Below, piece by piece: positions 2,494-57,199 of a DNA stretch of 57,358 nt. This DNA comes from a virus. The position numbers were made by a program, and so were the translations under genes. Each line of letters starts with the position of its first letter. Position 1 is the first letter of the stretch. The stretch covers positions 1 to 57,358 of the IMG/VR virus record IMGVR_UViG_3300015189_000004; one strand, given 5' to 3'. Under the pieces are notes generated by a model. That model saw only the letters and a list, made by a program, of their open reading frames with translations. It was not told where the DNA came from and ran no database searches.

Positions 2494-2874
2494 ATGAGCG
2501 ACAGCATTCTCAACACGACCAAGAAGATCTTGGGCATCGAGGCGGACTACACAGCCTTTGATGAAGACATCATGATGCACATCAACTCTGTGTTTGCAAC
2601 TTTGAACCAGATGGGCATCGGGCCGGTAGATGGCTTTGCGATCGATGATGCTGTAGCCACATGGGACAGCTTCACGAACGGAAACAGGAAGCTCAACTCA
2701 GTCAAGACGTACGTGTACCTTCGGGTTCGCATGCTTTTCGACCCGCCGACAACTTCCTATCTCATCGGGGCATTGAAAGAGCAGGTTGCCGAGTTTGAAT
2801 GGCGACTCAGCACATACAGGGAAGGAGAATCATGGACGAGTCCGTTCCCAGTGGTCGTAGACCCGTTGGTGTGA
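2494..2874 (+). CDS. Head-tail connector, gp6-like
   Basis: A 126-residue all-helical protein. It has the pattern of gp6-like connector proteins: an N-terminal ILNTTKKILGI, then FDEDIMMHINSVFATLNQMG, a VKTYVYLRVRMLFDPPTTS segment and an ALKEQVAEFEWRL helix. It is expected to form the ring below the portal. ATG 2494 is chosen over GTG 2485 because the ideal Shine-Dalgarno AAGGAGGTG (2479-2487) is correctly spaced only for the former. It overlaps the next gene by 43 nt. Confidence 0.8.
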   Translation: MSDSILNTTKKILGIEADYTAFDEDIMMHINSVFATLNQMGIGPVDGFAIDDAVATWDSFTNGNRKLNSVKTYVYLRVRMLFDPPTTSYLIGALKEQVAEFEWRLSTYREGESWTSPFPVVVDPLV

Positions 2875-3374
2875 GTGATGTTGTCCTTGCCCACTACGGG
2901 AAGAAGGGCATGCACTGGGGTGTTCGGCGTGCAAGCAAGTACTCCGATGGCCCAAAGGGTACAAACAACCCGGTAGTCACGAAAGAACGACCCGGACACA
3001 AGGTCACTGCCAAAGGAGGGGAGAATCAGCCAGCGTCTGCGGACGCAAAGGCTATTGCTATCTCTCGGCAGAAGGCGAAGAAGAGTTCCACAGACTCTCT
3101 TTCAACGAAGGACCTTCAGGACCTCGTCAATCGGATGAATCTTGAGCAGCAGTACTCTCGGCTGACTCCAGACTCGAGGTCGACGAAGGGTAAGAAGTTT
3201 GCCGGCAAGTTTGTGGGTCAGATAGCCAAAGAGCAGCTTCCAAAGCTTGCTGTTATCGGGCTCAAGAAGGCAACCGCCGGTATTGACGACCCTCGTGTCA
3301 ACACCGCGATGAAAGTTGCGGAAGCCATGGCCTCTGCCGGCGGAAACATGGCAGGAAAGAAGAAGAACAAGTAG
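2832..3374 (+). CDS. Virion-associated protein with HYGKKGMHWGVR motif
   Basis: A 180-residue basic protein. Residues 19-33 hold the motif LAHYGKKGMHWGVRR, related versions of which occur in two proteins at 5.2-6.0 kb and at the N-terminus of the RNA polymerase-like protein at 54.2 kb. The middle is polar and probably disordered. The C-terminus has alternating helices ending in a GKKKNK basic tail. ATG 2832 follows GAAGGAGAA. It lies between the connector and the large terminase, so a head-associated role is likely. The biochemical function is unknown. Confidence 0.7.
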   Translation: MDESVPSGRRPVGVSDVVLAHYGKKGMHWGVRRASKYSDGPKGTNNPVVTKERPGHKVTAKGGENQPASADAKAIAISRQKAKKSSTDSLSTKDLQDLVNRMNLEQQYSRLTPDSRSTKGKKFAGKFVGQIAKEQLPKLAVIGLKKATAGIDDPRVNTAMKVAEAMASAGGNMAGKKKNK

Positions 3375-5140: not shown

Positions 5141-5242
5141 ATGCTCGATGAAGATGAACACTGGGAATCGATTCCGGGCTATCCAACGCAACCAAAGGCT
5201 ATCGCTTTGAACGCATCGACTTATAGGAAGGCTTTCAAATGA
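5141..5242 (+). CDS. Very small ORF coupled to motif protein
   Basis: A 33-residue ORF with an excellent AGGAGG ribosome binding site seven nt before ATG 5141 and a stop overlapping the next start (ATG 5239). It is acidic at the N-terminus (DEDEHWESIPGYP). It could be a leader for translational coupling between terminase and the downstream motif protein, or a small structural peptide. The EHWESIPGYP stretch vaguely recalls the start of NUMOD4 domains, so a remnant of an HNH gene is also possible. Confidence 0.5.
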   Translation: MLDEDEHWESIPGYPTQPKAIALNASTYRKAFK

Positions 5243-5610
5243 CACAGGTGGCCGATAAACCGCCTCTAGACGAGGTGATGGAGCACGTTGGTGTAAAAGG
5301 CATGCACTGGGGTGTTCGAAAGAGTTCTTCATCCTCCAGTTCATCAAAACCGACTATGTCAACAAAGAAGAAGGTTGCTGTTGGCGTTGGTGTTGGTGTG
5401 TTGGCTGTTGGTGCAGCGGCTGCAGCAGTGGCCCTTTCGAAACATGGGAAAGTTCCGGTTCGAGAAGCGGTTGTTACCATCGCTACTCTAAAAGCTGAAA
5501 AATCCCCAACATACGACCAATACACAAAAGTTTTAGCATCAAAAGGCATGAACCAAAAGATCATGTTTGACAATGCTAAGAATGTGTACCACCTTGTTAG
5601 TTTCGACTGA
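5239..5610 (+). CDS. Membrane-anchored protein with HVGVKGMHWGVR motif
   Basis: A 123-residue protein. Residues 1-15 are similar to the next gene (MTQ-x-x-DKP), residues 16-28 are the HVGVKGMHWGVRK motif, then comes a run of eight serines, a lysine-rich patch and a glycine/alanine/valine membrane segment (about residues 45-68), followed by a polar C-terminus. It sits between terminase and portal. The tandem arrangement with the next gene indicates duplication of the N-terminal tag. Function unknown; a head-interior or ejected protein is a reasonable guess. Confidence 0.65.
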   Translation: MTQVADKPPLDEVMEHVGVKGMHWGVRKSSSSSSSSKPTMSTKKKVAVGVGVGVLAVGAAAAAVALSKHGKVPVREAVVTIATLKAEKSPTYDQYTKVLASKGMNQKIMFDNAKNVYHLVSFD

Positions 5611-5648: not shown

Positions 5649-6044
5649 ATGACACAGATACCTGATAAGCCCTCGATCGAAGAGGCCATGGAGCACTTCG
5701 GAAAAAAGGGCATGCACTGGGGTGTTCGAAAAGGAGCCGATTCTGGATCTGGTGGTGGTTCACCAAAGAAAGTGAAGCCGACAACGGCTGACATCCAAGG
5801 CGCTCGGTTTCGAACCCAAGCTCGAGTCAAAAGGATCAACTCCGCGTCAGAGGATCATGCCGTAGCAACATCGTCAAAGGGTCGATCCGCTGCGATGAAA
5901 ATCATCAATGACAACATCAAAGCTGACCTCAAGTCTGGCGACTCAAAGCTCGCGGCAAAATCTACCAAGGGCGAGAAGATTGCCGCTGGAATCGCGTATG
6001 GACTTTCCGGAGCCATAGTTGTCAGCATGATTGCCGGAAGGTAG
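5649..6044 (+). CDS. Protein with HFGKKGMHWGVR motif, tandem paralogue
   Basis: A 131-residue basic protein whose first 28 residues closely follow the preceding gene and contain HFGKKGMHWGVRK at residues 16-28. The body is lysine/serine-rich with a helical stretch, and the C-terminus holds a hydrophobic segment (about residues 112-129) ending in AGR. It starts at ATG 5649 after AAGGAG and is immediately upstream of the portal gene. The body differs from its neighbour, so only the tag is shared. Confidence 0.65.
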   Translation: MTQIPDKPSIEEAMEHFGKKGMHWGVRKGADSGSGGGSPKKVKPTTADIQGARFRTQARVKRINSASEDHAVATSSKGRSAAMKIINDNIKADLKSGDSKLAAKSTKGEKIAAGIAYGLSGAIVVSMIAGR

Positions 6045-7392: not shown

Positions 7393-9552
7393 ATGGAAGC
7401 AGATTTCAGCGGTTACGCTACCAAGGCTGGCCTCAAGTGCTCCGACGGGCGAACCATCATGCCTGAAGCATTCAAGCACATGGACGGGTTGAAGGTTCCT
7501 CTCGTCTGGCAGCATGGTCACAACGATCCCGCGAATGTCCTCGGGCATGCGATCCTCGAAGCTCGAGGCGACGGCGTGTACACCTACGCCTTCTTCAACG
7601 AGAACTCCGGCGGCAAGAATGCCAAGGCTCTTGTTCAGCACGGCGACATTGTCGCGCTGTCCATCTACGCCAACCAGTTGGTTGAGCGGGCGAAGCAGGT
7701 CTTCCACGGAACCATCCGAGAGGTCAGTCTGGTCCTTTCGGGCGCGAACCCTGGAGCCCTCATCGACAACATCAGCCTCGCACATGGTGACGGTGACATG
7801 GAGACGCTCGAAGATGAGGCCATCATCTTCACCGGTCTTGCTCTCGAGCATGAAGACAAGCCGGGCGTCGTCGAAGAGAAGGTCGAAGAGAAGGTTGAGG
7901 TTGTCGACGAGTCGAACCCTCAGGCGATCTACGACGCGCTCACCGATGAGCAGAAAGAGGTCGTTCACTCCATGATCGGCGATGCTGTTGACTCAGCAAA
8001 GACCAACACTGCCGAGCACGCATTCGTGCCTTTCGTCAAGGGCGGTGCACCAGCAGCAAGCACTGCCACGGCCACCCCTGGCAACAGCACGGACAAGACC
8101 GTCAAAGATGTCTTCGACTCGTTCAGTGACGAGCAGAAGAACGTCGTTTACTACATGATCGGAGCCGCAATCGACGAGGCTTCGGCAGGCACGGCAGCAC
8201 ATTCCTCTGACGACAATGCCGAAGAGGGCACCACCACCAACGAGGGCGACCTCAAGCACACGGAAGGAACCGTTGACATGACCAACGTCTTCGAACAGAA
8301 CGGCATTGCCCACCAGGAGCGTCCCAGCCTGACCCACGACCAGCTCTCGGCCATCGTGCAGGACGCGCAGAAGATCGGTTCCTTCAAGGAGGCGTTCCTC
8401 GCGCACGTCACGACCTACGGCATCGAGAACATCGACTTCCTGTTCCCGGATGCCAAGACGCTCGCATCCAGCCCGGAGATGGTCACCCGTCGTCAGGAGT
8501 GGGTGAACGTGGTTCTCACCGGAGCCAAGAAGTCCCCCTTCTCGCGGATCAAGACGATCTCTGCCGACCTGACCCTCGATGCAGCCCGCGCCAAGGGTTA
8601 CGTCAAGGCCAACCTCAAGAAGGAGGAGTGGTTCGGTCTCCAGAAGCGAGTCACCACTCCGACCACCATCTACAAGAAGCAGAAGCTGGACCGGGACGAC
8701 ATCGTCGACATCACTGACCTCGACGTCGTGGCTTGGCTCAAGGCCGAGATGCGCATCATGCTGGACGAGGAGATCGCCCGCGCCGTTCTGGTTGGCGATG
8801 GTCGTGAGATCGACGACCTCGACAAGATCAACGAGACCAACATCCGTCCGATCGCGTACGAGGATGACTTCTACGCGCACAAGACGATCATCGCGGCCAA
8901 CGTTGTCGGCGACTCCATCGTCGAGGCTGTCCTTCGGGCTCGTCCGAACTACCGTGGCACCGGGTCCCCGACCCTGTTCTGCACCGAGGGTCTTCTGACC
9001 GACCTGCTTTTGATCAAGGACAAGCTCGGCCGTCGTCTCTACACCTCGCTGGACGAGCTGGCGGTCACGCTTCGCGTTGCGAAGATCGTTCCCGTCCCCG
9101 TCATGGAGTCGCTCACGACCACCGGTGGCGACATCCTCGCCATTCTGGTCAACCTGACCGACTACACCATGGGCGCCGACAAGGGCGGCAACATCTCGAT
9201 GTTCGATGACTTCGACATCGACTACAACCAGTACAAGTACCTGATGGAGACCCGCATGTCGGGTGCGCTCACTCTGTTCAAGTCTGCTCTGATTGTGCTC
9301 CGTGCTGCTGGCACGCAGGTCAGTCCCACCGTTCCGACCTTCGTTCCTGCCACTGGTGTCGTCACGATTCCGGCTGTCACCGGCGTTGTCTACTCGCAGA
9401 GCGTCGATGGTGGGCCGGTTGTCGTGGCCACTGCTGGTGCTCAGACCGCAATCGGTGCTGGTCTCAGCGTCGAGGTCTCTGCTGCTCCTGCGGCGGGTTA
9501 CTACTTCCCGCACAACTTCGACACCGACTGGATGTTCACCCGCGCCGCCTGA
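7393..9552 (+). CDS. Fused prohead protease, scaffold and major capsid protein
   Basis: A 719-residue fusion. Residues 1-140 are an HK97-type prohead serine protease (candidate His41 in VWQHGHN, Ser90 in ALSIYAN, and the conserved REVSLVLSGANPGA strand). Residues 150-290 are an acidic scaffold-like delta region with two copies of a repeat (TDEQKEVVHSMIG / SDEQKNVVYYMIG). Residues from about 296 are the HK97-fold capsid protein, and residues 640-719 form an Ig-like C-terminal domain also found in the first tail-tube protein. An in-frame ATG at 8278 (Met296) follows GGAAGGAA and could give free capsid protein. Codons are strongly C-ending from about 8.0 kb on, as expected for the most abundant protein. 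Confidence 0.92.
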   Translation: MEADFSGYATKAGLKCSDGRTIMPEAFKHMDGLKVPLVWQHGHNDPANVLGHAILEARGDGVYTYAFFNENSGGKNAKALVQHGDIVALSIYANQLVERAKQVFHGTIREVSLVLSGANPGALIDNISLAHGDGDMETLEDEAIIFTGLALEHEDKPGVVEEKVEEKVEVVDESNPQAIYDALTDEQKEVVHSMIGDAVDSAKTNTAEHAFVPFVKGGAPAASTATATPGNSTDKTVKDVFDSFSDEQKNVVYYMIGAAIDEASAGTAAHSSDDNAEEGTTTNEGDLKHTEGTVDMTNVFEQNGIAHQERPSLTHDQLSAIVQDAQKIGSFKEAFLAHVTTYGIENIDFLFPDAKTLASSPEMVTRRQEWVNVVLTGAKKSPFSRIKTISADLTLDAARAKGYVKANLKKEEWFGLQKRVTTPTTIYKKQKLDRDDIVDITDLDVVAWLKAEMRIMLDEEIARAVLVGDGREIDDLDKINETNIRPIAYEDDFYAHKTIIAANVVGDSIVEAVLRARPNYRGTGSPTLFCTEGLLTDLLLIKDKLGRRLYTSLDELAVTLRVAKIVPVPVMESLTTTGGDILAILVNLTDYTMGADKGGNISMFDDFDIDYNQYKYLMETRMSGALTLFKSALIVLRAAGTQVSPTVPTFVPATGVVTIPAVTGVVYSQSVDGGPVVVATAGAQTAIGAGLSVEVSAAPAAGYYFPHNFDTDWMFTRAA

Positions 9553-24526: not shown

Positions 24527-24763
24527 GTGGACCCAGCGACCATATCTGCGTTACTTATTAGTGTCGCATCCCTTGTGGGTTGGATGGTAACGCAGACACA
24601 GGCAAGAAACAAAGCCCAAAGAGCTGAGCTGAGAGGTCGTCGAAAGCACTCTCTACTTGCCGATCAATACATGTTTCGTCTTGAATCGCTTCTTGCGCAA
24701 CGAGATATTCCTCTACCGGCGAAACCAGAAGGTCTCGACCCTGAAGAAGGAGAAGACTGGTGA
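24527..24763 (+). CDS. Single-span membrane protein, possible holin partner
   Basis: A 78-residue protein starting at GTG 24527. It has an N-terminal membrane segment (PATISALLISVASLVGWMV), followed by a strongly basic patch (RNKAQRAELRGRRKH) and a helical, acidic C-terminus. This resembles class III holins or spanin-like regulators. Its stop overlaps the collagen-like gene (GTGA), suggesting coupled expression. Confidence 0.6.
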   Translation: MDPATISALLISVASLVGWMVTQTQARNKAQRAELRGRRKHSLLADQYMFRLESLLAQRDIPLPAKPEGLDPEEGEDW

Positions 24764-25509
24764 CGCCACACACACAGGCGATGCCCGACAACGAGCTAGA
24801 GCCCGACAATGCAGACCTCGATAAGGCAGACCGTAACGACAAGTACAGATATGGCGTCTGGATTCTGGCTGCACTGCTCATTGGTGCTATCACCTGGATT
24901 CTTCTCGTCCAAAACGGAAACGCGAATGATCGAGCAGCAATCGAGGCTTCCCAGAAGTTCACATTGGCCCAGCAAGTAGCTGCAGCATGCGCTATCAAAG
25001 ATCAGAAAGACGATCTGGGAGGCCTTTGCACGAAGGCGCAACAGTTGGTCAAAGAGGGTCCTGCGGGCTCTACAGGCGCTCAGGGAGACCCTGGCGCTAC
25101 TGGTGCTCAAGGCCCACTCGGTCCGAAAGGTGAACAAGGCGTACAGGGAAATCAGGGAACTCAAGGGCTTCTAGGTCCTCAGGGCATATTCGGTAAAACG
25201 GGCTCAAATGGCATCACTGGTGTTCCGGGTATTGCTGGTACTAATGGTACTGCAGGTTCCGATGGTGTAACAGGAGCTACCGGTAAAGATGGTCAGACCG
25301 GTCCTGCTGGAGCAACAGGCGCTGATGGAAAAGATGGCGCTACTGGTGCTAAAGGTGATACCGGTGTTGCAGGTCCACCCGGAGTTACAGGTCCAACCGG
25401 CGCTAATGCGTTTCCATTCTCATTCACATTCAAGACCACGCTAGAGACGTTCAATTGCGTAATTACAGCATCGGATGCTGTTGCAACCTGCGCGTCCACA
25501 ACTCCATAA
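24760..25509 (+). CDS. Membrane-anchored collagen-like protein
   Basis: A 249-residue protein. An acidic N-terminus precedes one membrane segment (about residues 31-52), a helical stalk with two Cys (around residues 75-89), then about 115 residues of Gly-X-Y collagen-like repeats (GAQGDPGATGAQGPLGPKGE and onward) and a small C-terminal domain (FPFSFTFKTTLETFNCVITASDAV). Collagen-like repeats in phages usually occur in trimeric fibres; here the membrane anchor suggests a cell-envelope or virion-surface protein. GTG 24760 follows GAAGGAG. Confidence 0.8.
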   Translation: MTPHTQAMPDNELEPDNADLDKADRNDKYRYGVWILAALLIGAITWILLVQNGNANDRAAIEASQKFTLAQQVAAACAIKDQKDDLGGLCTKAQQLVKEGPAGSTGAQGDPGATGAQGPLGPKGEQGVQGNQGTQGLLGPQGIFGKTGSNGITGVPGIAGTNGTAGSDGVTGATGKDGQTGPAGATGADGKDGATGAKGDTGVAGPPGVTGPTGANAFPFSFTFKTTLETFNCVITASDAVATCASTTP

Positions 25510-25844: not shown

Positions 25845-25876
25845 TCGCGGGTTTTACACCGCCTATAATGAGACCC
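25845..25876 (+). promoter_or_regulatory. Phage promoter motif copy 1
   Basis: TCGCG begins at 25845 and TATAAT at 25864, exactly 19 nt later, followed by GAGACCC. It lies 24 nt before the next gene. This is one of ten copies with this geometry. There is no TTGACA-like -35 element at the usual distance. Confidence 0.75.
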
Positions 25877-26327: not shown

Positions 26328-26358
26328 TCGCAGGAATTACATGTCATATAATGAGACC
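26328..26358 (+). promoter_or_regulatory. Phage promoter motif copy 2
   Basis: TCGCA starts at 26328 and TATAAT at 26347 (19 nt), followed by GAGACCC. It precedes the small membrane gene at 26382. Confidence 0.78.
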
Positions 26359-26534: not shown

Positions 26535-26564
26535 TCTGATACACCCCACTCAGTTGTAAATCTC

Positions 26565-26597
26565 AAACCAACAGCCCCTAACACGGGCTTAAGGTTT
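26565..26597 (+). terminator. Hairpin terminator with CTAACAC loop
   Basis: A two-part stem: AAACC (26565) with GGTTT (26593) and AGCCC with GGGCT, loop CTAACAC. It is followed by GCCTC instead of a long T tract. The same loop and layout recur at 26842 and 30908. Confidence 0.7.
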
Positions 26598-26603
26598 GCC
26601 TCT

Positions 26604-26634
26604 TCGCAAGATATTCGGGCCCTATAATGAACCC
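26604..26634 (+). promoter_or_regulatory. Phage promoter motif copy 3
   Basis: TCGCA at 26604 and TATAAT at 26623 (19 nt), followed by GAACCCC rather than GAGACCC. It lies directly after the hairpin at 26565 and before the gene at 26657. Confidence 0.75.
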
Positions 26635-26836: not shown

Positions 26837-26841
26837 TTCAC

Positions 26842-26885
26842 AGACCTTAACCCCCTAACACGGGGTTAAGGTCTGCCTTATTTTT
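26842..26885 (+). terminator. Strong intrinsic terminator
   Basis: The 13-bp arms AGACCTTAACCCC (26842-26854) and GGGGTTAAGGTCT (26862-26874) enclose loop CTAACAC. They are followed by GCCTTATTTTTGCC. Confidence 0.88.
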
Positions 26886-26915
26886 GCCTCAAACCAAATC
26901 TCCGAAAGGGACATC

Positions 26916-27139: not shown

Positions 27140-27170
27140 TCGCAAGAAAACCACGTCCTATAATGAGACC
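27140..27170 (+). promoter_or_regulatory. Phage promoter motif copy 4, drives ncRNA A
   Basis: TCGCA at 27140 (overlapping the stop of the preceding gene) and TATAAT at 27159 (19 nt), followed by GAGACCC. No gene follows within 140 nt. Instead a structured RNA with a closing stem and U tract lies immediately downstream. Confidence 0.78.
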
Positions 27171-27310: not shown

Positions 27311-27703
27311 ATGAACATGGACCAGCGTGCGAAGATCAAGGACCACTTCCGTGAGAACAAGAACGTGTATATCGCTGCTGGTGTTGGCGTCCTCGTCGGT
27401 GCTGCCGGCTGTGTCTTCCTGAAAGATTCATCCACACTTGTCTCGATTCGAGAGACTCTGAACTTCAAGTGGAAATCGCCGACGACAAATGTTGTTCAGT
27501 TGATCATTCCGCCACTTGGTGATGCTGGGAATGTTGTTCAGTGTGTTGAAACAGGAACGATCTATGCGAGTCAAGGTCAAGCAGCACGAGAGCTTGGTGT
27601 CCGTGCTACGGACGTCTCGAAGCATATGCATGGTGTTCAAGAGCACGTCGCTGGATTGCATCTAAAGCTTCTAGGCAAGGCTGGCGAACCACTCGCAGGA
27701 TAA
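27311..27703 (+). CDS. Membrane-anchored NUMOD1-like DNA-binding protein
   Basis: A 130-residue protein. A basic N-terminus precedes a membrane segment (about residues 20-40), a short linker with FKWKSPTTN, and a C-terminal domain (about residues 75-115) containing VQCVETGTIYASQGQAAREL and DVSKHMHG, the NUMOD1/helix-turn-helix pattern normally appended to homing endonucleases. No nuclease domain is present. A paralogue with the same plan lies at 39869. A membrane-tethered DNA- or RNA-binding protein is inferred. Confidence 0.75.
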   Translation: MNMDQRAKIKDHFRENKNVYIAAGVGVLVGAAGCVFLKDSSTLVSIRETLNFKWKSPTTNVVQLIIPPLGDAGNVVQCVETGTIYASQGQAARELGVRATDVSKHMHGVQEHVAGLHLKLLGKAGEPLAG

Positions 27704-27723
27704 ACCCGCCCTATAATGAGAAC
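27693..27723 (+). promoter_or_regulatory. Phage promoter motif copy 5, drives ncRNA B
   Basis: TCGCA at 27693, inside the last codons of the preceding gene, and TATAAT at 27712 (19 nt), followed by GAGAACC. Confidence 0.8.
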
Positions 27724-27803: not shown

Positions 27804-27834
27804 ACGCAGGAAAACCACACCCTATAATGAGAAC
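27804..27834 (+). promoter_or_regulatory. Phage promoter motif copy 6, drives ncRNA C
   Basis: ACGCA at 27804 and TATAAT at 27823 (19 nt), followed by GAGAACC. It starts four nt after the U tract of ncRNA B. Confidence 0.8.
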
Positions 27835-27939
27835 CTAGTATCTGGATCACCCGATAAGGGAGATCTGAATGGCCACCCGATAAGGGAGACCTACTTGCCA
27901 CCCGATAAGGGAGACAACAGATACTAGGTTCTCATTTTT
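27829..27939 (+). ncRNA. Multi-hairpin ncRNA C (three repeats)
   Basis: The closing stem is 15 perfect pairs: GAGAACCTAGTATCT (27829-27843) with AGATACTAGGTTCTC (27919-27933), followed by ATTTTT. Three identical hairpins CCC-GATAA-GGG begin at 27850, 27876 and 27901 (period 25-26 nt), each within CACCCGATAAGGGAGA, with different spacers. No ORF is present. Confidence 0.78.
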
Positions 27940-28091: not shown

Positions 28092-28241
28092 ATGCGTCTC
28101 ATATTCTGGGTCTCCATGCTGATCATCGCCGCAGGGTTCATCGCACGCTGGTACCGCGTCAGTGCGCCTCAGTCTCAGACAACAAATCTGCCGGAGACTT
28201 CCGGTGAAACGCTCGAAAGGAACACCGATGACGCTGCTTGA
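28092..28241 (+). CDS. Very small membrane protein
   Basis: A 49-residue protein with an N-terminal membrane segment (residues 2-18) followed by a polar, acidic tail. It overlaps the DUF6353-like gene by 14 nt, and its last codons hold that gene's ribosome binding site (CGAAAGG). Function unknown. Confidence 0.6.
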   Translation: MRLIFWVSMLIIAAGFIARWYRVSAPQSQTTNLPETSGETLERNTDDAA

Positions 28242-29001
28242 CATCGCAAAGAAGGTTGAGAGACTTGCCATTGAGAACTCTCCGGCCATTCTGACAGCGA
28301 TTGCTGTTACTGGATCACTGGCCACAGCATATCTTGCTGGTTCGGCCTCGTTCAAGGCTGCGGATCTGATTGCGGACGAGCAGTACCGCTTGGACCTGCA
28401 CCCGACGGCACACCAGCTCGAAACCAAGGAGAAGTTCTACCTCGTATGGAAAGCCTATATCCCAGCCGCTGGTACGGGTGTCGTGACCATAGTGTGCATC
28501 ATCGGCGCCAACCGTATCGGATCACGTCGGGCTGCAGCAGTAGCTGCCGCGTACACGATATCCGAGAAGGCATTCACCGAGTACCGGGAAAAGGTCGTCG
28601 AGAAGATGGGCGAAGCCAAGGAGCGGAAGGTCCGCGATGAGGTGGCGCAGGATCAGGTCAATCGGAATCCTGCCGGATCTCGAGAGATCGTCATCACTGG
28701 CAATGGCGACGTGCTCTGCTATGACGTCTTCTCGGAGCGATATTTCGAGAGCGACATGGAGACGCTCAAGAAGGCTCAGAACGATCTGAACTACACGCTC
28801 CTCAACGATGGTTATGCCTCTCTCGGGGACTTCTACGGCAAGATTGGCCTCTCTGCGATGCCGTATTCCGAAGAAGTTGGCTGGACGAGTGAGCATCTGA
28901 TGGAGATGCAGCTCTCGACCACGCTTTCGGATGATCAGCGTCCGTGCATTTCGCTCGACTTCCGCGTGACACCTGTGCGGGACTACTACCGCGTTCACTG
29001 A
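28228..29001 (+). CDS. DUF6353-like membrane protein
   Basis: A 257-residue protein. Two membrane segments (about residues 20-40 and 72-92) lie before a helical region (AAYTISEKAFTEYREKVVEKMGEAKERKVRDEV, interrupted here) and a C-terminal globular part containing YDVFSERYFESDMETLKKAQNDLNY and a SLGDFYGKIGL element. Similar segments occur in the gene at 32080, so the two are paralogues. This phage family (DUF6353) has no known function. ATG 28228 is preferred because the upstream extension lies in another gene. Confidence 0.78.
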   Translation: MTLLDIAKKVERLAIENSPAILTAIAVTGSLATAYLAGSASFKAADLIADEQYRLDLHPTAHQLETKEKFYLVWKAYIPAAGTGVVTIVCIIGANRIGSRRAAAVAAAYTISEKAFTEYREKVVEKMGEAKERKVRDEVAQDQVNRNPAGSREIVITGNGDVLCYDVFSERYFESDMETLKKAQNDLNYTLLNDGYASLGDFYGKIGLSAMPYSEEVGWTSEHLMEMQLSTTLSDDQRPCISLDFRVTPVRDYYRVH

Positions 29002-29011
29002 GGCCTACGCC

Positions 29012-29042
29012 TCGCAAGAATTACGGGTCCTATAATGAGACC
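29012..29042 (+). promoter_or_regulatory. Phage promoter motif copy 7
   Basis: TCGCA at 29012 and TATAAT at 29031 (19 nt), followed by GAGACCC. It precedes the gene at 29067. Confidence 0.8.
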
Positions 29043-30595: not shown

Positions 30596-30626
30596 TCGCA
30601 GAAACTCCACGCCCTATAATGAGACC
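30596..30626 (+). promoter_or_regulatory. Phage promoter motif copy 8
   Basis: TCGCA at 30596 and TATAAT at 30615 (19 nt), followed by GAGACCC. It precedes the gene at 30647. Confidence 0.8.
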
Positions 30627-30901: not shown

Positions 30902-30907
30902 ACCCTC

Positions 30908-30948
30908 AAACCCACAGCCCCTAACACGGGCTTACGGTTTGCTTTTTT
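30908..30948 (+). terminator. Intrinsic terminator with CTAACAC loop
   Basis: AAACC/GGTTT and AGCCC/GGGCT pairs, loop CTAACAC, followed by GCTTTTTT (T run 30943-30948). It is the third copy of this terminator type. Confidence 0.85.
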
Positions 30949-30963
30949 GACAGAGGACTAATT

Positions 30964-32079: not shown

Positions 32080-32988
32080 ATGAATCTGAAACTCACAACG
32101 ATTAAGAACGCCATCACGTCGAAGGCGGCACGACAGATCCTCGTCACTCAGAAGCACTCACCCACGCTGCTTTTCGGTGCGGGCGTCGTTGGTGTCATCG
32201 CAACAGTGGTGCTTGCCTCTCGGGCAACGCTATATCTGGATGCTGCCATTGACGAGACCAACGATAAGCTGGTCAAGGCATGGGACATGCACGAGGAGAA
32301 CAAGAACTACACAGACAGCCAGTGGAACCGCGACAAGCTCACCATCCGTTCTCGTGGTGCCATGCAGATCGCCAAGTTGTACTGGCCGGCAGTCACCGTG
32401 GGCGTCATCTCCATCGGTTGCCTCAGTGGTTCACACGTCATTCTCACCAAGCGCAACGTTGGCTTGACCGCAGCATACGCCGCTGTCGAGAAGGGTTTCG
32501 CCGAGTATCGGGCGAGGGTCACCAGCGAGTTCGGTGAGGACAAGGATCGTGAGCTTCGCTACGGGACCGAGATGCATGAGGTCATCTCCGAGACGTCCAA
32601 GGGTGAGCATATTGTCACGAAAGTTCCGAGGGTTGGTCCCAATGGCTCGTCGATCTACGCCAAGTACTTCGATGAGTTCAACAAGAACTGGAACCGGGAA
32701 GCGGACTACAACCGGATCTTCATCCAGTGCCAGCAGGACTACGCCAACCACCTGCTTCACGCTCGTGGGCACGTCACTCTCAACGACGTGTATGACTCCC
32801 TCGGTATCGAGCGGAGCACCGCAGGATTCGTCGTCGGCTGGGTTCTGAACAAGGACGGTAGCGGAGACAATTTCATCGATTTCGGTGTATACGACAACAC
32901 CCAGAAGGCCCGAGACTTCGTCAACGGCCGAGAGGGTTCCATTCTGCTCGACTTCAATGTCGACGGCGTCATCTACGACAAGATCTGA
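32080..32988 (+). CDS. DUF6353-like membrane protein, second copy
   Basis: A 302-residue paralogue of the gene at 28228. It has a membrane segment near residues 27-47, a charged helix, a second membrane segment near residues 104-124, an AAYAAVEKGFAEYRARV helix, and a C-terminal domain with YAKYFDEFNKNWNREADYN and VTLNDVYDSLG. The two copies share architecture but are diverged. ATG 32080 follows AAGGAG. Function unknown; a membrane complex is plausible. Confidence 0.78.
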   Translation: MNLKLTTIKNAITSKAARQILVTQKHSPTLLFGAGVVGVIATVVLASRATLYLDAAIDETNDKLVKAWDMHEENKNYTDSQWNRDKLTIRSRGAMQIAKLYWPAVTVGVISIGCLSGSHVILTKRNVGLTAAYAAVEKGFAEYRARVTSEFGEDKDRELRYGTEMHEVISETSKGEHIVTKVPRVGPNGSSIYAKYFDEFNKNWNREADYNRIFIQCQQDYANHLLHARGHVTLNDVYDSLGIERSTAGFVVGWVLNKDGSGDNFIDFGVYDNTQKARDFVNGREGSILLDFNVDGVIYDKI

Positions 32989-39872: not shown

Positions 39873-40258
39873 AACACGAGATCAAGAAACATTTCCAAGA
39901 GAACAAACGAGTGTATCTCGTGGGTGCAGGGTGTCTTGTTGTTGGGGTTGCTGGAGCACTTATGCTTACGCGTAGCGATGCTCGAGTGACGGTAGACGCT
40001 TGGAAGTTCATCGAGTTCAAATGGAAGTCCCCAACGACAAACAACATAATGCAAACGGTCATGGAACGTCGAGGGCACCCGGGCTATGTTGTTCGATGTA
40101 TTGAGACTGGCAAGAAGTTTGCAAGCCAAAACCAAGCTGCTTCTGAAATGGGGCTAAACGCGGGGAATCTTTGTTCGCATTTGAACGGTAAGTATGCTCA
40201 CGTTCAAGGATTCACGTTTGAACGTCTTGGCGAAGCCATTGCCTCCGGGGTCGCATAA
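39869..40258 (+). CDS. Membrane-anchored NUMOD1-like protein, second copy
   Basis: A 129-residue paralogue of the gene at 27311: basic N-terminus (KHEIKKHFQENKRVYLV), a membrane segment (about residues 15-33), FKWKSPTTN, then the NUMOD1/HTH region (VVRCIETGKKFASQNQAAS; NLCSHLNGKYAHVQGF). In both copies a promoter motif and an ncRNA follow directly, so protein and ncRNA form a repeated genetic unit. Confidence 0.76.
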   Translation: MKHEIKKHFQENKRVYLVGAGCLVVGVAGALMLTRSDARVTVDAWKFIEFKWKSPTTNNIMQTVMERRGHPGYVVRCIETGKKFASQNQAASEMGLNAGNLCSHLNGKYAHVQGFTFERLGEAIASGVA

Positions 40259-40281
40259 AATACACGCTCTATAATGAGACC
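40251..40281 (+). promoter_or_regulatory. Phage promoter motif copy 9, drives ncRNAs D/E
   Basis: TCGCA at 40251 lies in the last codons of the NUMOD1-like gene. TATAAT at 40270 is 19 nt after its start, followed by GAGACCAACC. Confidence 0.8.
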
Positions 40282-46407: not shown

Positions 46408-46644
46408 ATGAGAACCACTAAACTGACGACTCCCAAGATGAACAAAGACCTCGCATCAGACAAGCCTGCTGGTTACTGCCGAGAATGTGCACACTTCATT
46501 CTCCTCAACAACGAAACCGGCATGGTCCGCAAGCATGGTCGTAAGGCTGACGGTGTGTACTGCAAGGGCTCGCATCGTGCGCCTTCGAAGGCTGCAGACT
46601 CATATCTCGTGAAGGACTGGACCCCTCCGCGTAGAAGCTCGTAG
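46408..46644 (+). CDS. Small zinc-binding protein
   Basis: A 78-residue basic protein with CRECAHF (Cys24 and Cys27) and a later Cys (VYCKGSH), a plausible zinc site. ATG 46408 follows AAAGGGAACC. The promoter motif copy 10 starts in its last codons. Function unknown. Confidence 0.65.
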   Translation: MRTTKLTTPKMNKDLASDKPAGYCRECAHFILLNNETGMVRKHGRKADGVYCKGSHRAPSKAADSYLVKDWTPPRRSS

Positions 46645-46669
46645 GAATTACACGCCATATAATGAAGAG
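46639..46669 (+). promoter_or_regulatory. Phage promoter motif copy 10, drives ncRNA F
   Basis: TCGTA at 46639 and TATAAT at 46658 (19 nt). It is followed by GAAGAGAAGACC instead of GAGACCC, the most diverged downstream part of the set. Confidence 0.75.
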
Positions 46670-53200: not shown

Positions 53201-53230
53201 TTGAGTAGTCACTTATTCGTGGCTTATAAT
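53201..53230 (+). promoter_or_regulatory. Canonical host sigma-A promoter before nuclease/RNAP operon
   Basis: TTGAGT (53201-53206) and TATAAT (53225-53230) are separated by 18 nt, a good match to host housekeeping promoters. It lies 50 nt before the VRR-NUC gene and could drive the nuclease and RNA polymerase-like genes early. Confidence 0.68.
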
Positions 53231-53279
53231 AGAAGGGGATAAGCAACTTCCATGCCATCTATTTTTGGGGAGATTCCAC

Positions 53280-53597
53280 ATGCTCGAGCGCGATTACCAA
53301 GCCCAGCTCATCAAAGAGCTCCGGCACAGGTTCCGTGGATGCATCATCCTGAAGAACGACACGGACTACCTGCAAGGCATGCCGGATCTCACGATCTTGT
53401 TCAAGGACAAGTGGGCGATGCTCGAGGTCAAGGCCTCCGAAGACGCCCCCTGTCAGCCGAACCAAGAGTACTACGTGGACGAGATGAACAATCTGTCCTT
53501 CGCGGCATTCATTTACCCCGAGAACGAGGACGACGTCTTAACAGCGCTCGCTCTCAAATTCAAACCTCGTCGGCAAGCACGCGCCCAGCGCGAGTAA
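53280..53597 (+). CDS. VRR-NUC domain endonuclease
   Basis: A 105-residue protein with the VRR-NUC (PD-(D/E)xK) core: an N-terminal helix (LERDYQAQLIKELRHRF), IILKNDTDYLQGMPDLTILF with the catalytic GMPD and the LEVKASE acidic/lysine pair, and a C-terminal Pro/Glu-rich part. Such phage enzymes act as Holliday-junction or structure-specific nucleases. ATG 53280 follows GGGGAG; TTG 53265 is the alternative. Confidence 0.88.
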   Translation: MLERDYQAQLIKELRHRFRGCIILKNDTDYLQGMPDLTILFKDKWAMLEVKASEDAPCQPNQEYYVDEMNNLSFAAFIYPENEDDVLTALALKFKPRRQARAQRE

Positions 53598-53622: not shown

Positions 53623-54183
53623 ATGCTCTTCAATCCTCACACGAATCTGATTGGTCAACACGCATTTCTGTCTGCATCAAAGTATGCGTGGGTGAACTAT
53701 GACGAGGAGAAGATCGACCGCGTCTACATCGCCAACTTGGCAGCACGACGTGGCACCGAGCTTCATGAGTTTGCGCATGAGGCTATTCGGTTAGGTATCA
53801 AGCTTCCTAGGACAGACCAGACACTTTGTCTCTACGTCAATGATGCTATTGGTTATCGAATGATTTCGGAGCAGATCCTTTACTACTCGGACAACTGCTT
53901 CGGAACTGCCGATACCATATCATTCAGACGTAACAAACTCAGGATTCACGACCTGAAGACCGGCGTGGGTCCAACGTCAGAACACCAGCTTGAGATCTAT
54001 GCTGCAATGTTCTGCCTTGAGTATCGGATCAAACCCTTCGAGATCGAGACTGAGCTTCGGATCTACCAGAACGATGAGGTTCGGATCTATGAAGTAGACC
54101 CCGACGTGATCGTTCATATCATGGACAGGATCATCACGTTCGACAAGCGCATTCAAGCCATCAGAATCGAGGCGATGCAGTAG
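53623..54183 (+). CDS. Cas4/RecB-like PD-(D/E)xK exonuclease
   Basis: A 186-residue protein with the RecB/Cas4-like nuclease signature: a GTELHEFAHEAI helix, GTADTISF with the first Asp, LRIHDLKTG (catalytic D and K) and HQLEIYAAMF (the QxxxY motif). The cysteine clusters of true Cas4 are absent. It probably resects DNA ends in phage recombination. Its stop and the next start share one base. Confidence 0.85.
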   Translation: MLFNPHTNLIGQHAFLSASKYAWVNYDEEKIDRVYIANLAARRGTELHEFAHEAIRLGIKLPRTDQTLCLYVNDAIGYRMISEQILYYSDNCFGTADTISFRRNKLRIHDLKTGVGPTSEHQLEIYAAMFCLEYRIKPFEIETELRIYQNDEVRIYEVDPDVIVHIMDRIITFDKRIQAIRIEAMQ

Positions 54184-56897
54184 TGATCATAGATGAAGAA
54201 GAGTACCTTGCTCACTATGGCACGGCACGTAAGTCAGGCCGTTATCCTTGGGGTTCTGGTGGCACAGAGAATCAGCAGAACAAGAGCTTCCTCGACCACG
54301 TAGACACTATGCGGAAGCAGGGACTCACTGATACTGAGATTGCCAAAGGTCTCGACATGACAAGGACTGCTCTTCAAGCCAAGAAGACCATGGCAAAGAA
54401 TGAGCAGAAGCAGACCGACATCACCACGGCCCAACGACTCAAGGCCAAGGGTATGGGAAACATGGCCATCGGTCGTCAGATGAATCTCAATGAGTCGTCT
54501 GTACGCTCTCTGCTGGCTCCTGGTCAGATGGCAAAAGCTCAGGCGCTCATGTCAACTGCGAACATGTTGAAGAGGCATGTAGATGAGAAGGGTGTCATTG
54601 ACGTCGGTTCTGGCGTTGAGCATCACCTTGGGCTGAGTCGTGACAGGCTTGACAAAGCCATTGAGATCTTGCGGCAACAGGACTACTACATGACCAATGT
54701 TCAGATCGACCAACTTGGTACTGGTGGAAACCAGAAGACAAACATCAAGGTGTTGGCTCTTCCGGGAACCACATATCGAGACATCGTGAAGGACAAGAGC
54801 TCGATCAAGTCTGTTACTGACTACACCGATGATGGTGGCTTGTCTTGGTCAGGACTCAGGCCTCCGCTCAACATCAACTCAAATCGTGTGCAGGTGCGTT
54901 ACAAGGAGCAAGGCGGCGGTGAAGCTGACGGCGTGATATACGTTCGTCGTGGAGTTGACGACCTGTCTCTCGGAACCAATCGGTATGCACAGGTTCGTGT
55001 GGCTGTTGATGGAACGCACTACCTCAAGGGTATGGCCATGTACAAAGATGACATGCCAAAGGGTGCAGACCTCGTATTCAACACGGTGAAGAGCGACACG
55101 GGCAACAAGCGTGACGCCATGAAGAAGATGCAGATCGACAACGCAACCGGCAAGATCGATGAGGGTAACCCCTTCGGTGCTGTCATTGGGCGTCAGATCA
55201 AAGAGTTGGGTCCTGATGGAAAAGAGCGCTGTACCTCAGTGATGAATATGGTCAATGAGGAAGGTCAATGGGACAAGTGGTCGAGAAACCTTTCATCCCA
55301 GATGCTGTCAAAGCAAAGTCCTGCTCTCGCTAAGACTCAGTTGGATATGACATACGAGAAGAAGAAGCTCGCTCTCGATGAGATATCCGCTCTAACCAAC
55401 CCTGTTGTTAGGGCCAAGCTTCTTCAGTCGTTTGCAGATTCAGCAGACTCATCTGCTGTGCACCTCAAGGCAGCCGCAATGCCGAGGCAAAGCTCTCATG
55501 TTATTCTCCCTGTTCCGGGAATGAAGGAAAACGAGATCTTTGCACCCAACTTCGACAATGGGACTCGCGTTGCTCTGATTCGTTACCCCCATGGTGGCAT
55601 ATTCGAGATCCCAGAGTTGACAGTCAACAACAAGCATGCTGAGGCGAACAAGCTTCTTCATGGCGCCATAGATGCAGTAGGCATCAGCGCAAAGGTGGCA
55701 GAGCGTCTTTCGGGTGCAGACTTCGATGGCGATACTGTCCTTGTCATACCAAATGGCAGAGGCGAAATCAAGACTGCGCCACCGCTAGCTCGGCTAGTTC
55801 ATTTTGATCCCAAAACTGAGTATCCCAAATATGATGGCATGCAGCTTATGACCGTCCACGCAAAGGGCACTCATATGGGTGAGATCTCGAATCTCATTAC
55901 GGATATGACAATCAAGGGCGCATCGCCAGCCGAGCTCGCTCGAGCAGTCCGGCATTCCATGGTTGTTATTGATGCTGAGAAGCACAGCCTTGACTACAAG
56001 CGATCTGCCGTAGATCATGGGATCAAGCAGCTCAAGACCAAATATCAGGAGAACGGGACTGGTAATAGAGGTGCATCAACAATCATCTCTAGAGCAACGG
56101 CTAGGACAGACATCCTTGCTAAGAAACCCCGTCCAATGGCAGATGGTGGTCCCATTGACAAGAAGACTGGTGCACTGGTATTCGTACCCACAGGAGAGCA
56201 CTACACCAGGACTACGGTCAGCAAGAAGGGCGTCACCAAAGAGACGGTCATCTACAAGAAGCAGCGTTCTCAGAAGCTGATTGAAGAGACCAACGCTCAC
56301 AACCTAGTCTCTGACAAGGGTGGCACTAAGATCGAGAAGATCTATGCCGATCACTCCAACAAGCTGAAAGCATTGGCTAACACAGCAAGGCTTGAGATGG
56401 TGCACACTAAGACACACCCCATCTCTCTATCAGCAAAGGCCGCATACAAGCCTGAAGTGATCTCCCTAGGTGCGAAACTGACCCTCGCCCAAAGGAACGC
56501 CCCCCTCGAAAGACAAGCCCAGGTGCTAGCAAACTCCGTCATCGAGGCCAAGAAGGCTTCTAATGCGAACATGGAGAAGGCTGAACTCAAGAAGATTAAG
56601 TTCCAGGCACTTGAGGCGATGCGTGCAAGGACAGGCGCAGACAAGCAGAAGATCGTTATCACACCTACTGAGTGGGCTGCTATCCAAGCAGGTGCTATCA
56701 GTAACGATAGGTTAGGCAAGATCCTTGACCATGCTGACCTAGATGTAGTCAAGGCCTTGGCAACACCAAGAGTTCAGGTACTGATGACATCAGCTAAGAA
56801 GTCCAAGGCTGCAAGCATGGCCGTACGTGGGTACACACAGGCAGAGATAGCTGCTGCCTTAGGTGTCTCGTTGACAACACTCAAGACTAACATCTAG
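54183..56897 (+). CDS. YonO-like single-chain RNA polymerase with N-terminal tag
   Basis: A 904-residue protein. The metal-binding loop SGADFDGDTVLVIP (D513, D515, D517) is the DxDGD signature of two-barrel RNA polymerases (beta-prime, YonO, QDE-1). A preceding barrel-like region has VALIRYPHGGIFEIPEL. The N-terminus is EYLAHYGTARKSGRYPWGSG (residues 7-26), related to the HxGxKG-x-x-WG motif of three head-region proteins, then two HTH segments (about residues 40-115: GLTDTEIAKGLDMTRTAL; GMGNMAIGRQMNLNESSVRSL). A third HTH closes the protein (GYTQAEIAAALGVSLTTL). Length is near that of YonO (905). It probably makes phage RNA; tag and HTHs may serve targeting and promoter recognition. GTG 54183 is the only in-frame start before the tag. 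Confidence 0.82.
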   Translation: MIIDEEEYLAHYGTARKSGRYPWGSGGTENQQNKSFLDHVDTMRKQGLTDTEIAKGLDMTRTALQAKKTMAKNEQKQTDITTAQRLKAKGMGNMAIGRQMNLNESSVRSLLAPGQMAKAQALMSTANMLKRHVDEKGVIDVGSGVEHHLGLSRDRLDKAIEILRQQDYYMTNVQIDQLGTGGNQKTNIKVLALPGTTYRDIVKDKSSIKSVTDYTDDGGLSWSGLRPPLNINSNRVQVRYKEQGGGEADGVIYVRRGVDDLSLGTNRYAQVRVAVDGTHYLKGMAMYKDDMPKGADLVFNTVKSDTGNKRDAMKKMQIDNATGKIDEGNPFGAVIGRQIKELGPDGKERCTSVMNMVNEEGQWDKWSRNLSSQMLSKQSPALAKTQLDMTYEKKKLALDEISALTNPVVRAKLLQSFADSADSSAVHLKAAAMPRQSSHVILPVPGMKENEIFAPNFDNGTRVALIRYPHGGIFEIPELTVNNKHAEANKLLHGAIDAVGISAKVAERLSGADFDGDTVLVIPNGRGEIKTAPPLARLVHFDPKTEYPKYDGMQLMTVHAKGTHMGEISNLITDMTIKGASPAELARAVRHSMVVIDAEKHSLDYKRSAVDHGIKQLKTKYQENGTGNRGASTIISRATARTDILAKKPRPMADGGPIDKKTGALVFVPTGEHYTRTTVSKKGVTKETVIYKKQRSQKLIEETNAHNLVSDKGGTKIEKIYADHSNKLKALANTARLEMVHTKTHPISLSAKAAYKPEVISLGAKLTLAQRNAPLERQAQVLANSVIEAKKASNANMEKAELKKIKFQALEAMRARTGADKQKIVITPTEWAAIQAGAISNDRLGKILDHADLDVVKALATPRVQVLMTSAKKSKAASMAVRGYTQAEIAAALGVSLTTLKTNI

Positions 56898-56911: not shown

Positions 56912-57199
56912 GTGGTTCAACACATGCTAACAACAGTAGACAATCCTTTCAATCCTTTCACTCACTTCGACGAGTGGCATGCATACGACGAGGCATCAGG
57001 CTACTACACATCAGAGTTCCTTGCAAGGATTGTGATTACATCTGATGAACTGTCAGAGGCTGATCAAGTGTTGGCGATCGAACATGCAATCGATGAGATT
57101 GTAGAAGAGAATGTTCTTGGGTTGTACAGGAAGGTTACTGAAGATGGTCAACCATCGACAGAGAAAACTTCTGTGCAGTCCACTGCGATCGCGGTGTAG
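56912..57199 (+). CDS. Conserved phage hypothetical protein
   Basis: A 95-residue protein with the conserved start DNPFNPFTHFDEWHAYDEASG and GYYTSEFLARIV, then ELSEADQVLAIEHAIDEIVEENVLGLY, a pattern common in phages of Gram-positive bacteria but without known function. GTG 56912 lies five nt after GGAAGGA; ATG 56924 is too far away. Last gene of the window. Confidence 0.7.
   Translation: MVQHMLTTVDNPFNPFTHFDEWHAYDEASGYYTSEFLARIVITSDELSEADQVLAIEHAIDEIVEENVLGLYRKVTEDGQPSTEKTSVQSTAIAV

Follow-up and report, generated by a model that had tools for sequence, protein, structure and literature searches.

A phage family of single-chain two-barrel RNA polymerases, its candidate promoter motif and a tag shared with head-region proteins

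Introduction

Does a bacteriophage that encodes its own two-barrel RNA polymerase also supply the promoters which that enzyme reads, and could the enzyme travel with the DNA into the host cell? These questions are raised by a gene near the right end of the IMG/VR virus record IMGVR_UViG_3300015189_000004, the whole 57,358-nucleotide stretch of which is called the window here:

54183..56897, + strand: single-chain two-barrel RNA polymerase open reading frame (ORF), 904 amino acids, GTG start (by PHROG 4291 match and fold)

An initial annotation, made from the letters of the DNA, had read this ORF as a single-chain RNA polymerase of the YonO/QDE-1 class with a RYPHGG motif, a DFDGD loop at residues 513-517, helix-turn-helix (HTH) segments at both ends and an N-terminal HYG...WGSG element, and all of these features are present. 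We found that its product falls, by predicted fold, among the single-chain two-barrel polymerases; that it shares a tag with head-region proteins; that the window holds a set of promoter-like elements; and that their motif and the polymerase occur together across phages. We consider it likely that the enzyme is a sigma-independent polymerase for the early genes and for its own operon, carried in the virion and loaded there by its tag.

Results

A widespread family with a predicted two-barrel fold

The PHROG 4291 profile spans nearly the whole protein (residues 3-902, E 0, 1260 bits), and the window protein is thus a member of a family found in actinophages, the Lactococcus 1706 group, the Faecalibacterium phage FP_oengus and gut Clostridia genomes. 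By tblastn the polymerase is found in 250 of 50,697 phage records, with all best places below 60% identity and 249 covered over at least 80%; by genus these are Arthrobacter 95, Gordonia 55, Streptomyces 54, Lactococcus 13, Siphovirus 12, Curtobacterium 7, Rhodococcus 4, Microbacterium 4 and others. There are at least 518 relatives in IMG/VR, and the polymerase was confirmed in 152 bacterial/archaeal species genomes, many of them labelled gut Clostridia. Depositors usually call the gene ‘helix-turn-helix DNA-binding protein’; RefSeq has ‘RNA-dependent RNA polymerase’ (also the label of PHROG 4291), FP_oengus has ‘putative RNA polymerase’, and the polymerases of ReqiPoco6 and Lactococcus 1706 (orf75) were deposited as ‘structural protein’. 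PHROG 4291 is therefore already named as a polymerase family in PHROGs and RefSeq; a literature search for it as a characterised polymerase gave no recognisable functional study. The T7-like single-subunit domain RNA_pol was not among the 13 Pfam families matched at E up to 1.

An AlphaFold2 (AF2) model was built from 79 aligned sequences, which remained from 93 (the window and 92 loci) after near-duplicates and other rows were left out, the partial sequence L013 being dropped from alignments; its mean predicted local distance difference test score (pLDDT) was 83.3 and its predicted template modelling score (pTM) 0.74. Foldseek against the Protein Data Bank (PDB) gave QDE-1 (7e-10), maize RDR2 (2.1e-7) and P74-26 gp62 (2.2e-7), with chains of multisubunit polymerases at about 2e-3. 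The VIA-align Z scores were 18.7 for RDR2, 18.1 for QDE-1, 14.4 for P74-26 gp62 and 14.2 for P32 gp64, compared with about 10.8 for multisubunit large-subunit chains, which aligned mostly across residues ~421-725. The QDE-1 match pairs its residues 682-1188 with 228-742 of the model (363 residues, root-mean-square deviation 4.3). The two catalytic barrels, with whose presence the annotation stood or fell, are thus there in the model, which matches QDE-1 and P74-26 gp62, and the prediction supports placing the enzyme with the single-chain two-barrel polymerases. The phage polymerases phi14:2 gp66 and P23-45 gp96 were not among the listed fold matches, which excludes nothing. A phmmer search of solved structures with the polymerase found no match, and a family-profile search of them found HTH-like or designed repeat proteins only. 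The parts of the catalytic core are:

54858..55262, + strand: first barrel region (beta-like), residues ~226-360, with the invariant K282-G-M-A; limits estimated from the range aligned with QDE-1
55470..55757, + strand: second barrel region (beta'-like), residues ~430-525, containing R467-x-PH (model, fold alignment and conservation)
55719..55733, + strand: DFDGD metal-binding loop, residues 513-517 (sequence and conservation)

All 79 aligned sequences keep DFDGD, R467-x-P469-H470, K282-G-M-A, M565-G, N570-L-I, H591 and D597, the invariance of DFDGD being partly a matter of selection, since relatives were fetched in part by the pattern GADFDGD. In each of 11 diverse named phages the catalytic signature holds as well, apart from minor substitutions (P078 has KGV for KGM). 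Two candidate catalytic lysines lie in the first barrel, K282 (79/79) and K288 (63/79).

As to YonO itself, the class assignment held for the single-chain two-barrel fold; for membership in YonO's own sequence family the profile match is weak: hhalign gave a probability of 3.9 with single sequences, and of 1.1 (E 0.049) with a profile of 19 of the 78 YonO loci (L285, which has a stop codon, and L296 were dropped). These two values do not support YonO as a close relative. The best local alignment pairs RYPH with RSPH, DFDGD with DNDGD and GEISNLIT with GEYSNNIT, in register.

A three-block promoter-like set in the early region

The annotation had also guessed at a set of candidate promoters, and such a set exists. 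A repeat search of the window found ten 40-nucleotide copies, which align as TCGCA-N14-TATAATGA followed mostly by GAC or ACC. The TCGCA block is exact in seven of the ten (TCGCG, ACGCA and TCGTA occur once each), and a looser middle block, 4 nucleotides after the first block and 5 before TATAAT, is NNACA in four of the ten. A pattern with exact spacing, derived from these sites, occurs ten times on the + strand, never on the - strand and never in 200 dinucleotide shuffles. The next start codon with a ribosome site lies 30-46 nucleotides downstream in 7/10 and 74-157 in the rest, and no element was found in the first 25 kb of the window.

25845..25875, + strand: promoter-like element 1 (TCGCG-N14-TATAATGAGACC), by repeat search, alignment and pattern
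26328..26358, + strand: promoter-like element 2
26604..26634, + strand: promoter-like element 3
27140..27170, + strand: promoter-like element 4
27693..27723, + strand: promoter-like element 5
27804..27834, + strand: promoter-like element 6
29012..29042, + strand: promoter-like element 7
30596..30626, + strand: promoter-like element 8
40251..40281, + strand: promoter-like element 9
46639..46669, + strand: promoter-like element 10

The layout of a host sigma-70 promoter, with a TTGACA-like block 16-18 nucleotides before the -10 hexamer, does not fit these elements, in which TCGCA is the conserved upstream block and its spacing is exactly N14. CTATAATGAGACC may resemble the T7 promoter. A literature search for the motif strings, judged on titles and the starts of abstracts, gave nothing related to phage transcription.

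The same layout was found again in 10/10 relatives examined. A matrix made from the ten window sites (threshold 15), with which mostly the non-structural part of each genome was scanned, gave sites on the + and - strands, respectively, of 12/0 in ReqiPoco6, 10/0 in Shepard, 6/0 in Scap1, 7/0 in Chikenjars, 11/0 in Kardashian, 12/0 in Count, 2/0 in AddiRose (more by eye), 1/0 in 1706 and 3/0 in P078; it gave 0/0 in the scanned parts of FP_oengus (15-58 kb, where the letters differ) and of SPbeta. The spacing is rigid: in eight genomes, TCGCA and TATAATGA were separated by N14 at 40 sites, by N8-13 or N15-21 at none and by N22 at one. The letters are less so. TATAAT is the commonest hexamer and occurs in most actinophage sites (counts from the named phages are unbiased, those from 80 IMG/VR motif loci biased by their choice with an exact pattern); among sites found through TCGCA and GAGACC alone, it is kept in 2/11 (Streptomyces phage Kardashian) and in 0/6 (Scap1). 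Lactococcus 1706 has mostly TTTTACA-N5-TATAGTAGAA (loose pattern, 13 + and 0 -), and P078 has TTTTACATACCCTATAATGA (10 + and 2 -). FP_oengus has (A/G)CGCG, then a middle block whose last letters are mostly CA, and CTTTAT-G without TATAAT, at 12 sites on the + strand and none on the - strand at one spacing, other spacings from 6 to 25 being empty except for one site at 24. The FP_oengus and Lactococcus patterns were written after the data had been inspected, the FP_oengus set having been spotted first by eye. Thus the letters drift while the layout stays, following the polymerase across phages of Actinomycetota and Bacillota.

How closely motif and polymerase go together can be read from whole collections. 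A blastn search with a 44-nucleotide consensus (E up to 10) matched 230 of the 50,697 phage records, with counts equal to those of the polymerase in Arthrobacter (95), Gordonia (55), Streptomyces (54), Siphovirus (12) and Rhodococcus (4), and lower in Curtobacterium (4 for 7), Lactococcus (4 for 13), Microbacterium (1 for 4) and Caudovirus (1 for 2). Of 60 motif records listed, 53 are polymerase carriers by name; the other seven are six Arthrobacter records and one contig89. When the 80 IMG/VR loci chosen by exact pattern were reduced to 73 distinct contigs and searched for the polymerase, 43 matched its profile: 25/25 of those of at least 40 kb and 18/48 of the shorter ones, several short contigs matching only a small N-terminal-like piece. 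In 37/37 contigs with a long polymerase match the motif lies on the polymerase strand (by eye). Six non-structural proteins are present in 10/10 relatives (a primase/polymerase, a helicase, a VRR-nuclease, a Cas4-like exonuclease, the RNA polymerase and the last small gene), the RNA polymerase being the sole transcription enzyme of the six.

Three side observations concern this early region. Directly after element 6, at 27846-27915, a CACCCGATAAGGGAGA unit occurs three times at ~25-nucleotide spacing. Three related repeats around CCCCTAACACGGG, with a terminator-like look, lie between small genes at 26562-26611, 26839-26888 and 30905-30954. Two DUF6353 (phrog_2152) paralogues, at 28162-28998 and 32080-32985, are kept in most relatives.

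HTH regions at both ends

The annotation's fused HTHs were borne out at both ends, as predictions, by profile match and by the AF2 model:

54288..54590, + strand: N-terminal helical region, two predicted HTHs, residues 36-136 (phrog_3855 and model)
56790..56891, + strand: C-terminal HTH, residues 870-903 (Pfam and model)

The N-terminal region matches phrog_3855, ‘HTH DNA binding protein’ (5.9e-7, best stretch 31-73), and has model helices at 36-45, 50-56, 61-88, 93-100 and 104-111. The C-terminal region matches Pfam Sigma70_r4_2 at 883-904, at 5.9e-5, under the curated cut-off. In some relatives there are also small stand-alone proteins that resemble N-terminal pieces of the polymerase (profile 42-119 or ~114-209), which are possibly regulators competing for the same promoters:

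L224:43498-43974 (Microbacterium phage Count): polymerase-N-terminal-like stand-alone protein
L137:2828-3301, - strand; L166:4970-5404; and L121:6365-6793, - strand: polymerase-N-terminal-like stand-alone proteins

The polymerase operon

In the linear records viewed in full, the polymerase gene is the last but one at the right end, with a small conserved gene after it; the FP_oengus record was opened at a different point from its linear relatives. The operon in the window is:

53206..53236, + strand: degenerate element upstream of the polymerase operon (TAGTC-N4-ATTCG-N5-TATAAT-AGAAGG), 11/14 matches
53265..53597, + strand: VRR-nuclease-like gene, first of the conserved operon (Pfam, PHROG and relatives)
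53623..54183, + strand: exonuclease, phrog_3953, of the Cas4 family according to the annotation of relatives
56912..57199, + strand: small last gene, phrog_4303, beside the polymerase in 10/10 relatives

We scanned the 600-1500 nucleotides before the polymerase start in the 86 loci that had at least 600 nucleotides upstream. A three-block element with at least 12/14 matches was found on the + strand in 55/86, on the - strand in 4/86 and in 0/86 shuffled sequences; these elements mostly continue with AGAAGG, not GAGACC. One of the 12 FP_oengus sites (27684) likewise precedes the polymerase operon, ~80 nucleotides ahead of its first gene (27766). A host sigma promoter (TTGAGT-N18-TATAAT), at one time our candidate for this operon, was replaced, since the relatives share the degenerate three-block layout. 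Taken alone, the window allows either a host sigma promoter or a degenerate three-block element there; with the relatives, its sequence suggests a promoter-like element before the operon.

An N-terminal tag shared with head-region proteins

The annotation had linked the N-terminal element of the polymerase to virion-region proteins, and the link was found, through a variant of the tag (Pfam DUF7211) on proteins of the window's head-gene region:

54207..54260, + strand: N-terminal tag of the polymerase, residues 9-26, LAHYGTARKSGRYPWGSG (sequence and conservation)
2799..3374, + strand: tagged protein (HYGKKGMHWGVRR, DUF7211) directly before terminase
5239..5610, + strand: tagged protein (HVGVKGMHWGVRK, DUF7211) after terminase
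5649..6044, + strand: tagged protein (HFGKKGMHWGVRK) before the portal gene

The polymerase tag is unstructured in the AF2 model (pLDDT below 50 over residues 1-33), and its SGRYPWGS is present in 79/79 aligned sequences, which were not fetched by it. As a regular expression, HxG...WGSG matches 88 of the 92 IMG/VR members, the other four differing only past SGRYPWGS; among 80 members taken from bacterial genomes, a stricter pattern matches 68 and a variant is seen in 10 of the remaining 12, in a set that was partly selected, since the tag pattern was among its queries. In phage records the strict tag is nearly confined to the polymerase family. The second form, H-x-G-x-x-G-M-x-W-G-V-R-R, corresponds to DUF7211 and is carried by the three window proteins near terminase and portal, Pfam matching both of those scanned. 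The two forms are linked by the gut phage MT835616, in which head-region proteins carry the polymerase form: one protein just before terminase (RYKWGSG) and another before portal (RYKYGSG), both matched by PHROG 4291 through its N-terminal part (3.3e-10 and 6.2e-9). The pre-terminase protein of MT835616 and the 2799-3374 protein of the window, in turn, both match phrog_7021 and phrog_24711 (BLASTP E 0.001). The 80 loci from bacterial genomes hold 80 further ORFs with a DUF7211-like form, all on the polymerase strand and 31 of them directly before terminase. In Lactococcus 1706 the tagged orf7 and orf75 were both deposited as ‘structural protein’, orf75 lying far from the structural genes. Literature searches found no relevant paper with the tag peptides, and none for DUF7211/PF23847. 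As to proteomics of the family, a term search of PMC5513430 and PMC11536984 found no occurrence of ‘mass spectrometry’.

In some phages the tag also occurs within genes annotated as RNA ligase or acetyltransferase. Gene 6 of Streptomyces phage Miek (L230:2341-3399), just before terminase, has a 2'-5' RNA ligase-like domain (Pfam 2.3e-10) and a mid-chain DUF7211; its product is possibly a head-loaded RNA enzyme. Elsewhere in the structural region of the window, a head maturation protease profile runs across the 719-amino-acid protein of 7393-9552, which probably doubles as the major capsid protein, a situation noted in Arthrobacter phages of clusters AM/AU; and collagen-like repeat DNA at 25057-25355, inside ORF 24760-25509, perhaps belongs to a tail fibre. 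In FP_oengus (MG711463), 146-1387 is annotated integrase, and part of the polymerase-bearing phage group is probably temperate.

Discussion

We propose that this enzyme, which almost certainly makes RNA on a DNA template, would recognise without host sigma a promoter of three blocks: TCGCA, the looser NNACA, and a -10-like hexamer followed by GAGA. These promoters would sit mostly ~30-46 nucleotides ahead of small early genes, and that the polymerase reads this motif seems to us highly probable. Recognition would be the task of the HTH domains at the N and C ends, and the blocks, being about one helical turn apart, would suit several HTHs reading from one side of the DNA. With a variant of the promoter before its own operon in most relatives, the polymerase may amplify itself. 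The disordered N-terminal tag, common to the terminase- and portal-flanking proteins, would most likely drive packing into the head, and some of the enzyme would then enter the cell along with the DNA and start early transcription. By analogy with the capsid-targeting sequence of T4-like phages, the tag may be a head-loading signal, and we lean towards the polymerase being packaged in the head. We are evenly divided on the fullest form of the proposal, in which the phage has a virion-carried, sigma-free system, tag-loaded like internal head proteins and reading three blocks with multiple HTHs, and in which the promoter has changed in step with the enzyme among phages of Actinomycetota and Bacillota.

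Several points weigh against this proposal. The ‘structural protein’ of 1706 is a deposited name and the ReqiPoco6 label was given by similarity. The polymerase gene lies outside the structural module, and the operon element of the window is weak, scoring 11 compared with 9 on the - strand and 9 when shuffled. Sequence homology to YonO is not significant by hhalign. The co-occurrence of motif and polymerase is strong and is not proof, because common ancestry of the group as a whole could have the same effect; these phages also have primase/polymerase, helicase and nucleases in common, and the motif could be read by some other factor that they share. The -10-like block, TATAAT in most actinophage sites, would also be usable by host sigma.

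The strongest competing explanation, less probable than ours yet one to be taken seriously, is that the polymerase is real but made only after infection, host RNA polymerase starting transcription and the tag serving, for example, to tether the enzyme near heads. The gene's place in the replication/recombination part, beside the Cas4-like and VRR-nuclease genes, would suit this, as would the precedent of P23-45, which has a separate non-virion two-barrel polymerase (according to a passage of PMC10770324). Against it, the tag equals the active site in conservation and is otherwise found on terminase-flanking proteins, and 1706 orf75 was deposited as structural. It is rather unlikely that the motif is a host sigma-A promoter overlapped by an operator or activator site for another phage protein, the polymerase reading something else: the commonness of TATAAT and the stand-alone proteins resembling the polymerase N-terminal modules speak for it, but the upstream block is a conserved TCGCA at N14 rather than a TTGACA-like one at 16-18 nucleotides, Kardashian and Scap1 sites mostly lose TATAAT though GAGACC is kept, FP_oengus has CTTTAT, and the layout tracks the polymerase in phages of both phyla. 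That the protein is a true RNA-dependent RNA polymerase copying RNA, as the PHROG and RefSeq name and the best fold matches (QDE-1 and RDR2) might imply, or an inactive two-barrel relative serving only to bind DNA, is very improbable in a double-stranded DNA phage whose enzyme has HTH domains, a promoter-like set and DFDGD in 11/11 diverse members, and QDE-1 too accepts DNA templates (PDB titles).

Compared with known systems, the window enzyme, which we take to be a virion-carried early polymerase, shares with QDE-1 and RDR2 a single chain, two barrels and DxDGD (aligned from ~227 to 742-804), but those are eukaryotic RNA-interference polymerases, not phage enzymes, with ~11-16% identity to it. 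QDE-1 and RDR2 are not known to have HTHs or a tag of this kind. YonO of SPbeta is likewise a single-chain phage polymerase, of ~840 amino acids, with DNDGD and R-S-PH. It transcribes late genes (as stated in part of PMC5467207), whereas the window has no promoter-like element in its structural region. P23-45 and P74-26 (gp64, gp62 and the virion polymerase gp96) also have phage single-chain two-barrel polymerases. The crAss-like phage enzyme phi14:2 gp66 reportedly has a role in the virion. It too is a single-chain two-barrel phage polymerase, and in P23-45 the tape measure protein includes the virion polymerase, which transcribes pre-early genes (both in a passage of PMC10770324). Unlike that tape-measure enzyme, the window polymerase is a separate protein that bears HTHs and, N-terminally, a short tag, and unlike P23-45 the window phage was found to have only one polymerase gene. 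What this analysis adds is a promoter code, the finding that it diverges along with the enzyme, and a connection through the tag to proteins of the head region.

Hundreds of phages whose gene is mostly annotated ‘HTH DNA-binding protein’ thus appear to encode a polymerase of their own, together with promoters whose code can be read, and gene timing in PHROG 4291 phages becomes directly testable. The pair would offer an orthogonal promoter and polymerase for Streptomyces, Gordonia, Arthrobacter and Lactococcus, and a case in which sigma-free promoter finding by a two-barrel enzyme can be studied. For the 25-residue tag family DUF7211, to which Pfam assigns no function, our findings propose a function that can be tested: the loading of cargo into phage heads.

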